From positions 2,999,001 to 3,063,000 of the forward strand of contig NZ_CP115159.1 in NCBI RefSeq assembly GCF_027594425.1: DNA of 64,000 nt. The letters are read 5' to 3'. Both the position numbers and the translations under genes were made by a program. Shown here one piece after another: positions 9,972 through 11,939 of the stretch. The stretch is from Zunongwangia sp. HGR-M22 (lineage in GTDB: Bacteria; Bacteroidota; Bacteroidia; Flavobacteriales; Flavobacteriaceae). Numbering within the stretch: position 1 is the stretch's first letter; every line of letters begins with the position of its first letter. The notes beneath the pieces are model-generated. The model worked only from the letters and a program-made list of their open reading frames with translations, searched no databases and had not been told where the DNA came from.

Positions 9972-10167
9972 TCAAAATTATTATACCATTATTTCATAGA
10001 ACCACAACCCAAAAGGATTAGCTTTATGATGGTATCAAATCGGCTGCAAATTAAAGTAATTTATCAGCACCATCCAAAGCTTTTTTCAAAATTTTTTTGA
10101 AAAATTTTCAGTCAATTAACTTTCAACAAGTTAAGAAAACCAAAGCTTTCAGATTCAAAATTTCAAG

Positions 10168-10338: not shown

Positions 10339-10641
10339 CTAGGCGTATAATTTAGATTTCTCTTTCCTTTTAATCAATTGGCGCTGCAAAGAGCTAACAC
10401 ACTCATCTACACATTCTTCAAATCTTTTACAGGTCTTTTTCACCATAATATCTTCACCAGGTATACTTAGTAAAATTTCTGTAATTTTATTTTCCTTATC
10501 GCTTGTATTCTGAACTTTCAGAAAAACATCTGCAAAAACCACCTTGTTATAATAATTCTCGAGTTTATCCATTTTCTTTTGAATAAAATCAATTAGTTTT
10601 TGATCCGCATTAAAATTTACAGACTGCACATTTACTTTCAT
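10339..10641 (-). CDS. hpf: Ribosome hibernation-promoting factor (short HPF/YfiA family)
   Basis: Small protein of 100 residues in the HPF/YfiA family, which binds in the mRNA and tRNA channel of the 30S subunit and silences ribosomes in stationary phase. The beta-alpha-beta-beta-beta-alpha fold is readable: MKVNVQSVNFNADQKLIDFI, KLENYYNKVVFADVFLKV and the basic C-terminal helix KKTCKRFEECVDECVSSLQ. It lacks the dimerising tail of long HPF. It lies 33 bases downstream of xerC and is probably cotranscribed with it and rpsU, which groups two ribosome-state genes. Confidence 0.9.
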   Translation of the reverse strand: MKVNVQSVNFNADQKLIDFIQKKMDKLENYYNKVVFADVFLKVQNTSDKENKITEILLSIPGEDIMVKKTCKRFEECVDECVSSLQRQLIKRKEKSKLYA

Positions 10642-10674: not shown

Positions 10675-11568
10675 CTAGTTCTTACTATTACGGGGATGAG
10701 CTGTTTTATGAATGTTTTTAAGTTCTGCAATACTATTATGCGTATAAACTTGTGTTGATGCCAGGCTAGAATGTCCTAACAATTCTTTCACAGCGTTTAA
10801 ATCTGCTCCCTGATTAAGTAAGTGCGTCGCAAAAGAGTGTCTTAGTATATGAGGACTCTTTTTTAACTTACTCGACGCCTTACTAAAATAGTTATTTATA
10901 ATTCTATAAACAAGACTTTCACTCATTTTATCTCCCTTGGCAGAAACAAACAAATAATCTTCAGGAAAAAGCCCAAACCCTTCATTTTGTCTCTTTTCAA
11001 TATAATATTGCAAGTTTTGATATACGTTTTCTAGCAAAGGAACGTAACGCTCTTTATTTCTTTTACCCAAGACTTTGAGATTAAGTTGTGACGAATCCAA
11101 ATCCATTAATTTTAGATTTATCAATTCGCTACGTCTTAATCCTGTTGAATAAAACACTTCTATGATTGCCTTATCTCTAGCCCCCTCAAAGGCATCTATA
11201 TTTATACTATCTAATGCACTAAGGATTTCTTTTTCTGAAAATGGAATCTGGATCTTCTTACCCGTTTTAAGAGGCTTATGCTTTTGAAGTGGGGACACAA
11301 CTACATCTTCAACTTTTTGCAAGAATTTATAAAAAGATTTTAAAGATGAAATTTTACGATTTATACTTCTATTAGAAAGACCTGCTTCAGAAAGGCTTAT
11401 GATCCAACTCCGAATTTGCGAATAATTTATTTGCTGAAAATCACAGCCCCCAAATTCGATTTCAATAAAATCCTGAAAGGAAAGCAAATCAGCCTCATAT
11501 GCCTTAATGGTATGCGCTGAATAATTCTTCTCCAAGAGAAGGTAGTCATTAAACTGATTAATGGACAT
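10675..11568 (-). CDS. xerC: Tyrosine recombinase XerC
   Basis: Recombinase of 297 residues that with a partner resolves chromosome dimers at dif. The SAM-like N-terminal DNA-binding domain covers about 1-85, and the catalytic domain about 105-290. Catalytic residues are visible: R145 (STGLRRSEL), K169 (LGKRNKER), H240 and R243 (HILRHSFATHLL), H266 (LLGHSSLASTQVYTH) and nucleophile Y275. Its place between rpsU and hpf and the absence of attachment repeats mark it as housekeeping XerC and not a phage or island integrase. The ATG at 11568 directly follows a hairpin and T-tract. Confidence 0.93.
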   Translation of the reverse strand: MSINQFNDYLLLEKNYSAHTIKAYEADLLSFQDFIEIEFGGCDFQQINYSQIRSWIISLSEAGLSNRSINRKISSLKSFYKFLQKVEDVVVSPLQKHKPLKTGKKIQIPFSEKEILSALDSINIDAFEGARDKAIIEVFYSTGLRRSELINLKLMDLDSSQLNLKVLGKRNKERYVPLLENVYQNLQYYIEKRQNEGFGLFPEDYLFVSAKGDKMSESLVYRIINNYFSKASSKLKKSPHILRHSFATHLLNQGADLNAVKELLGHSSLASTQVYTHNSIAELKNIHKTAHPRNSKN

Positions 11569-11618
11569 AAAAAAAACTGTTGATAAACAAAGTTAAGAAA
11601 CTTAATTTACCAACAGTT
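11569..11618 (-). terminator. Hairpin and U-tract between rpsU and xerC
   Basis: In the minus-strand RNA AACTGTTG (11618-11611) pairs with CAACAGTT (11582-11575), with four further pairs inside after one mismatch and an inner TTAAG/CTTAA stem. The 3' arm runs into six or more U that end at the ATG of xerC. It looks like an intrinsic terminator of rpsU with no spacer before the next gene, so read-through would feed xerC-hpf. Confidence 0.7.
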
Positions 11619-11682: not shown

Positions 11683-11877
11683 TTAGATATCTTCTTGATC
11701 TCTAAGGTGCTGAATATATTCGGCTTTTTGAACTTGAGCCCTACGTTCTACAGACGGTTTTGTAAAATGCTGACGACTTCTTAGCTGTCGCATTGTTCCT
11801 GTCTTATCGAATTTACGCTTAAAACGCTTAAGCGCTCTATCAATGTTCTCTCCGTCTTTTACTGGTATTATTAACAT
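11683..11877 (-). CDS. rpsU: 30S ribosomal protein S21 (bS21)
   Basis: Small basic protein of 64 residues with the S21 pattern MLIIPVKDGENIDRALKRFKRKFDKTGTMRQLRSRQHFTKPS. It sits on the 30S platform near the 3' end of 16S rRNA. In Bacteroidota ribosomes it is known to help hide the anti-Shine-Dalgarno sequence. Unlike nearly every other gene here, its start is preceded by a strong, extended Shine-Dalgarno, which fits the autoregulation described for this gene in Flavobacterium. It has its own promoter about 35-60 bases upstream. Start ATG at 11877. Confidence 0.98.
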   Translation of the reverse strand: MLIIPVKDGENIDRALKRFKRKFDKTGTMRQLRSRQHFTKPSVERRAQVQKAEYIQHLRDQEDI

Positions 11878-11882
11878 AGATC

Positions 11883-11892
11883 CACCTCCTTT
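11883..11892 (-). promoter_or_regulatory. rpsU: Extended Shine-Dalgarno of rpsU
   Basis: The minus strand reads AAAGGAGGTG, then GATCT, then ATG. The ten bases are fully complementary to the CACCTCCTTT end of 16S rRNA, with a 5-base spacer. Other starts in this window (rpoB, rplL, rplK, nusG, tuf) have only A/T-rich leaders, so this site stands out sharply. Confidence 0.92.
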
Positions 11893-11909
11893 CGTTGAAA
11901 ATTAGGCTG

Positions 11910-11939
11910 CAAATATAATTGAATTTTACTTACAACCAA
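11910..11939 (-). promoter_or_regulatory. rpsU: rpsU promoter
   Basis: TTG (11939-11937), exactly 19 bases, then TATATTTG (11917-11910) on the minus strand matches the Bacteroidota consensus TTG-N19-TAnnTTTG. Transcription should begin near 11904, which gives a leader of about 27 bases almost filled by the Shine-Dalgarno. Confidence 0.75.

Follow-up and report, generated by a model that had tools for sequence, protein, structure and literature searches.

An extended Shine-Dalgarno sequence on rpsU of Zunongwangia sp. HGR-M22 and a second bS21 gene in related Flavobacteriaceae

Introduction

Autoregulation of ribosomal protein bS21 is already known, having been published for Flavobacterium johnsoniae (McNutt et al. 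2023, PMC9976891). In this bacterium loss or mutation of bS21 raises the output of rpsU'-gfp, and purified ribosomes without bS21 initiate faster on rpsU mRNA; in one assay, ribosomes poor in bS21 were no longer faster at 37 C (PMC9976891). Masking of the anti-Shine-Dalgarno sequence (anti-SD) by bS21, bS18 and bS6 has been described for the Bacteroidia (Jha et al. 2021, via PMC8710568 and PMC9976891). Extended Shine-Dalgarno sequences (SDs) are found across the Flavobacteriales and make rpsU stand out clearly in about 80% of them (PMC9976891), and the bS21 loop is restated in a review (PMC10931766).

Here we analyse the rpsU locus of Zunongwangia sp. HGR-M22 within a stretch of 64,000 nucleotides (contig NZ_CP115159.1 of assembly GCF_027594425.1, positions 2,999,001 to 3,063,000 of the forward strand), which we call the window. 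A sequence-only reading had noticed an extended SD on rpsU and proposed that it serves an autoregulatory loop that might also reach the genes downstream. We followed these claims in the window, in the rest of the genome and in related Flavobacteriaceae.

Results and Discussion

The rpsU gene and its leader

The rpsU gene (11683..11877, minus strand) is an open reading frame for a bS21 of 64 amino acids in which Tyr54 is present (Pfam Ribosomal_S21, 1.2e-20; TIGR00030). The top PDB match of its product is chain z of the F. johnsoniae ribosome 7jil (2.5e-27), and the other two pocket proteins of the organism, bS18 and bS6, match the same ribosome at 2.4e-54 and 9.1e-54, a likeness that is one of whole-sequence matches. 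As a side observation, the PDB entries 9oyv, 9ozz and 9p0e list the sequences of F. johnsoniae bS18 and bS6 and not that of bS21, and are possibly ribosomes without full bS21.

Two 16S copies read in the same genome end in ...GGAACACCTCCTTTCT and carry an intact anti-SD, CACCTCCTTTCT. The extended SD of rpsU, GAAAGGAGGTG (11883..11893, minus strand), pairs with this tail over 11 bp and lies 5 bases (GATCT) 5' of the ATG. The first reading had seen AAAGGAGGTG five bases before the start codon, and this is borne out, with the minus strand running GAAAGGAGGTG GATCT ATG; its description of the site as fully complementary to the 16S 3' end is nearly right, since 11 of the 13 bases taken as the tail are paired. 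The duplex with the 13-nt tail has an energy of -20.6 kcal/mol as calculated with ViennaRNA, below the -13 kcal/mol mark of McNutt 2023, which was set with another program.

Further upstream we found the proposed TTG-N19-TATATTTG promoter, made up of a -7 box, TATATTTG (11910..11917, minus strand, read from 11917 to 11910), and, 19 bases upstream of it, a candidate -33 TTG (11937..11939, minus strand, read from 11939 to 11937). Both elements are read against what we take to be the promoter consensus. Because the box sits 32 bases from the ATG, the 5' leader would measure about 25-27 bases, which fits the length of about 27 nt given in the first reading (11878..11904, minus strand, with the start placed from the position of the -7 box); the leader of F. 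johnsoniae rpsU is 25 nt long (PMC9976891). Rfam returned seven matches between positions 10000 and 12500 of the window, the gathering score being reached by tRNA only, and no described family of structured ribosomal-protein leaders was matched at that score.

Strong Shine-Dalgarno sites elsewhere in the genome

Taking as genes the longest ATG frames of at least 100 amino acids, the best start among the 55 other genes of the window has an SD energy of -7.1 kcal/mol, and the best among 353 other genes (the window plus 20 stretches) reaches -13.1 kcal/mol. In this larger sample, -5 kcal/mol was reached at 36 starts versus 62 mock positions, -7 at 11 versus 20 and -9 at 4 versus 6. SD-like sites are rarer at gene starts than at mock positions: the genome avoids SDs where genes begin. 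The short pattern GGAGG-N4-11-ATG occurs 436 times genome-wide versus 336 for its reversed control (1.3 times), an excess that tells against complete SD avoidance, though the count is blind to gene starts.

For strong sites the whole genome was scanned with ATG starts and the AGGAGGT core. The pattern AGGAGGT-N2-9-ATG gave 40 matches, all of which were read, versus 45 for the reversed pattern, and RARGGAGGTG-N3-12-ATG gave four, again all read, versus three. Besides rpsU, only two of the 40 open a frame of at least 60 amino acids that is not within a longer open frame, one for a 164-residue protein with no Pfam match (-17.5 kcal/mol) and one for a tetrapyrrole methylase (-16.8 kcal/mol; L210 near 1503, minus strand); both SDs fall within the 3' end of the preceding gene. 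Three close homologues of the methylase were read, distant matches of 25% identity or less being excluded from the count, and their SDs stand at -13.5 (L343), -16.4 (L344) and -2.9 kcal/mol (L345). The methylase is thus a possible second SD-dependent start, and a weak candidate at that, because these bases also code for the last residues of the protein encoded upstream.

By the 353-gene sample and the pattern matches, rather than by McNutt's ranking against other ribosomal protein genes, rpsU is the outstanding SD gene here, yet it is not the sole strong match. Many unrelated genes with equally strong SDs, which the first reading had named as the finding that would speak against it, did not turn up, the best of the 353 genes remaining at -13.1 kcal/mol and the two genome-wide starts being weaker than rpsU.

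One further match (L208), at -21.8 kcal/mol, was considered as a member of an SD regulon and rejected, as it runs antisense within a coding frame and is followed by a frame of two codons, and was taken as chance. The gene that holds it we take by eye to be similar to phosphatidate cytidylyltransferase, a membrane protein.

Conservation of the site in the family

We compared rpsU leaders across Flavobacteriaceae, a check that the first reading had proposed, in about one genome per genus. A bS21 was found in 115 of the 120 genomes, and 114 of the 115 best copies were read (all but that of G003). Downstream of 107 of these 114 genes lies xerC on the same strand, and hpf was found in 96 of the 107 xerC-linked stretches. 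An SD of -13 kcal/mol or better is kept in 100 of the 107 xerC-linked rpsU genes, the window included, versus none of the 107 at the mock position. That the site on rpsU might be a chance match could draw on the antisense match described above, which is equally strong and looks like chance itself, but chance is refuted by the recurrence of a strong SD in this position in 100 of the 107 genes, and we give it practically no credence. In 102 of the 107 genes a TAnnTTWG box is found no more than 60 nt from the ATG, mostly 28-39 bases away, and therefore the short leader looks general.

The SD is weak or missing in the other seven xerC-linked genes (-9.9 kcal/mol in L083; -6.3 or weaker in L109, L122, L126, L132, L133 and L150), all of which belong to genomes no larger than 1.9 Mb. 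Genomes of this size account for 13 xerC-linked copies, seven of them with a weak or missing SD, versus none of the 94 others. Tyr54 is changed to His or Phe in three of the seven genes whose SD is weak or missing, and it is replaced in one of the 100 with the SD.

The gap between rpsU and xerC

Downstream of rpsU in the window come a xerC-like tyrosine recombinase gene (10675..11568, minus strand; TIGR02224 at 299 bits, below the cut-off of 335) and, 33 nt after it, hpf for the ribosome hibernation factor (10339..10641, minus strand; open reading frame and family match). The first reading had extended the loop to both genes, ribosome state setting their levels as well, which would take a shared rpsU-xerC-hpf transcript. 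The conserved gene order, in which 107 of 114 stretches have xerC on the strand of rpsU and 96 of these 107 also have hpf, is what such a transcript has in its favour. What the gap itself holds points the other way. A terminator-like hairpin (11575-11618) and a T-run (11569-11574), together 11569..11618 on the minus strand, fill the space before xerC, the hairpin being AACTGTTGGTAAA...TTTATCAACAGTT, followed by Ts and immediately by the start codon of xerC. Its folding energy is -19.4 kcal/mol (z -6.93), which none of 200 shuffles equalled. A consensus terminator scan with a loop limit of 8 bases does not list the 11569-11618 hairpin because that limit is too short, and folding was used instead.

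The same arrangement recurs throughout the family. Of 105 rpsU-xerC gaps, the window included, 99 contain a hairpin that is followed by a T-run and reaches -8 kcal/mol, versus 7.6% of shuffles, and 97 contain one that reaches -12, versus 1% (105 of the 107 gaps were counted; L095 and L115, with lengths under 35 or over 400 bases, were excluded). The arms of the hairpin vary between genera and their pairing is kept (e.g. L037, L043, L053, L069 and L130).

Within the hairpin of the window lies TAACTTTG (11588..11595, minus strand), a putative -7 box of xerC; the promoter is only putative because in the window this box lacks a TTG at the customary distance. Of the 99 hairpins, 26 reach to within 15 nt of the xerC start codon, and all 26 contain a TAnnTTW box (11.1 expected from single-base shuffles), whereas in the other 73 the box lies inside in 4 (9.1 expected). 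When the hairpin is separate and the gap is no longer than 220 bases (69 of these 73), TAnnTTW occurs between the hairpin and the xerC ATG in 65 (42.7 expected). From these counts it follows that a single composite element would often serve as both rpsU terminator and putative xerC promoter, the window being a case in point. We therefore judge xerC to be outside the rpsU transcript. With a conserved terminator-like hairpin that usually has a promoter-like xerC box in or after it, and with F. johnsoniae rpsU apparently transcribed alone (PMC9976891), the extension to xerC and hpf is disfavoured, and we regard control through a shared transcript as very unlikely. Rather, rpsU appears to be closed by a terminator of its own, and so probably exerts no control over its neighbours.

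A loop that very probably operates here

Taken together with the loop known from F. johnsoniae, the intact anti-SD, Tyr54, the likeness of bS18 and bS6, the outstanding SD and the short leader suggested by the -7 box agree with the first reading, in that the sequence fits an autoregulatory loop. On replete ribosomes, bS21, bS18 and bS6 would hold the 16S tail and block SD pairing, and most genes of this SD-poor genome would start without it. On ribosomes lacking bS21, the tail would be free to form its 11 bp with the leader of rpsU, and these ribosomes would make bS21 until the shortage is over, a response that we infer from F. johnsoniae, as we do any response of rpsU translation to the level of bS21 in the present organism. 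Transcription would end at the hairpin before xerC.

An SD of this kind could also do no more than make rpsU a constitutively strong start, without any sensing of bS21, and indeed, in the published model, rpsU mRNA continues to be translated by replete F. johnsoniae ribosomes, although more slowly (PMC9976891). Against this, an SD of 11 bp on the very gene whose product masks the anti-SD, in a genome that avoids SDs, is what feedback predicts, and the relative that was tested, F. johnsoniae, does respond to bS21 (PMC9976891). We hold a constitutive start to be unlikely. That rpsU is a stand-alone, translationally autoregulated gene appears highly probable to us, and for this organism the loop can be accepted as well supported by the close analogy with F. 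johnsoniae.

A second bS21 gene in relatives of the window's organism

What appears to be new here lies outside the window, namely a bS21 gene without SD, here called rpsU2, often located behind rpoD, in many Flavobacteriaceae. By hand count, at least two bS21 matches are present in 42 of the 120 genomes surveyed, and 36 second copies were read (L151-L186; the second copies of G015, G037, G057, G062, G079 and G117 and all third copies were left out). An SD of -9 kcal/mol or better is found in none of the 36 (the strongest is -5.5), while the xerC-linked copy of the same genomes has one of -17.2 or stronger in 36 of 36. Tyr54 is kept in 35 second copies. The end of an rpoD-like gene lies no more than 450 bases upstream of 14 of the 36, and likewise of two best copies without a linked xerC; mostly around 30 bases separate the two genes. 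Two genomes rated 99% complete (G053 and G091) yielded only the SD-less kind of bS21, and in the genome of the window one bS21 gene was found, with no bS21 frame seen after its rpoD.

In a tree of the bS21 sequences, 32 of the 36 second copies and four best copies that are not xerC-linked make up a group of 36 (support 89/78), and a second group, of 110 rows, holds the xerC-linked copies and three others (92/92); with 64 columns, these supports are moderate and below the 95/80 mark of the program. The second copies L179, L184, L185 and L186 stand outside both groups, have altered C-termini and are perhaps mobile.

We also scanned named genomes with an rpsU2 alignment and took the best 80 of at least 560 bS21 relatives of any kind (L222-L301). 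These best 80 come from genera of Flavobacteriaceae (Algibacter, Winogradskyella, Psychroserpens, Gelidibacter, Tamlana and others) and a few assemblies named to class or order. None of the 80 has an SD at -9 kcal/mol (the strongest is -7.1), an rpoD-like end lies within 450 bases upstream in 54, and Tyr54 is present in all; seven of the 80 loci are identical to loci of the first set, and the two sets are thus not independent. Among 148 genomes of the order, identity to rpsU2 of at least 80% was seen in three of the 21 family members, and the 127 genomes of other families gave 65% or less.

A 7-bp palindrome (TTTAGGA stop TCCTAAA) lies between rpoD and rpsU2, for example in L154 and L226, and was considered as a regulatory leader. 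Among 112 distinct upstream regions (from 120 loci), 45 have an rpoD-type end, and in 20 of these 45 all seven positions are paired. The palindrome straddles the rpoD-type stop codon and shows few double changes, and we do not claim it as an element. In the 15 rpsU2 loci, out of the 80, that were compared with Rfam, no match reached its gathering score. We found no report of a Flavobacteriaceae rpsU2 paralogue in the open-licence literature, including the bS21 passages of PMC10931766 and PMC10783764, and the discussion of PMC9976891 lists groups with extra bS21 genes, among which the Bacteroidota do not appear.

Could rpsU2 switch the loop off?

Because rpsU2 is without the SD that makes rpsU1, the xerC-linked gene, respond, the loop should not reach it, and its translation should resemble that of other genes. 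Because its product keeps Tyr54, the residue that steers the 16S tail into the pocket, it should, if it enters ribosomes, mask the anti-SD and lower the translation of rpsU1. We therefore put forward the hypothesis that rpsU2 might switch the bS21 loop off: it would be translated by replete ribosomes, fill those that lack bS21, re-mask the anti-SD and shut rpsU1, a one-way switch with two ribosome types, of which the organism of the window would be the one-gene state. We offer this tentatively and consider it rather doubtful. Of the 64 residues of the bS21 of the window, 19 are different in the rpsU2 product of L154, and 10 of these changes fall between positions 23 and 35. Phage and host bS21 differ at positions 21, 23, 25 and 28 (PMC9723584), and the changed run of L154 overlaps these positions. 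Among 11 viral bS21 genes read (L211-L221, from 5 of 10 phage-record matches and all six viral contigs, the start of L221 being extrapolated), an SD beyond -9 kcal/mol was found in one (L211, -12.1), and for these 11 loci no SD pattern is claimed.

The 36 of 36 two-gene relatives with an SD on the xerC-linked copy and none on the other amount to a natural experiment on whether swapping of bS21 serves to regulate the composition of ribosomes, and in part of the Flavobacteriaceae rpsU2 ties bS21 to rpoD. It is a testable side result that deserves a test.

Comparison with known systems

On the whole, the observation made in the first reading is correct and its interpretation largely right and already published, with the extension to xerC and hpf disfavoured by the sequence. 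The rpsU gene of F. johnsoniae (PMC9976891) shares with that of the window an extended SD near -20 kcal/mol, an SD-poor genome, Tyr54 and a probably short leader; transcription of rpsU alone is suggested here by the terminator-like hairpin. Nothing of substance differs in the window, which adds a further clear example to a published case of specialised ribosomes. What is added to the F. johnsoniae picture is an rpsU terminator able to carry a promoter-like box of xerC, and the SD-less second bS21 of relatives. With the anti-SD sequestration described for Bacteroidia (PMC8710568, PMC9976891), the present organism has in common an intact anti-SD and three proteins close to those of F. johnsoniae, although it is known from sequence and not from a structure.

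Three other systems resemble the relatives that bear rpsU2. Francisella tularensis (PMC9578407, via PMC10931766) also has more than one bS21 per genome, and leader-dependent translation effects are reported for its homologues (PMC10931766), but it belongs to another phylum and is without a masked anti-SD. The macromolecular synthesis operon of E. coli, rpsU-dnaG-rpoD (PMC10931766), likewise brings genes for bS21 and rpoD together, whereas rpsU2 sits behind rpoD. Finally, the bS21 of Bacteroidetes phages (PMC9723584) is, like rpsU2, an additional bS21 in which residue 54 remains aromatic and positions around 21-28 differ, while rpsU2 is chromosomal.
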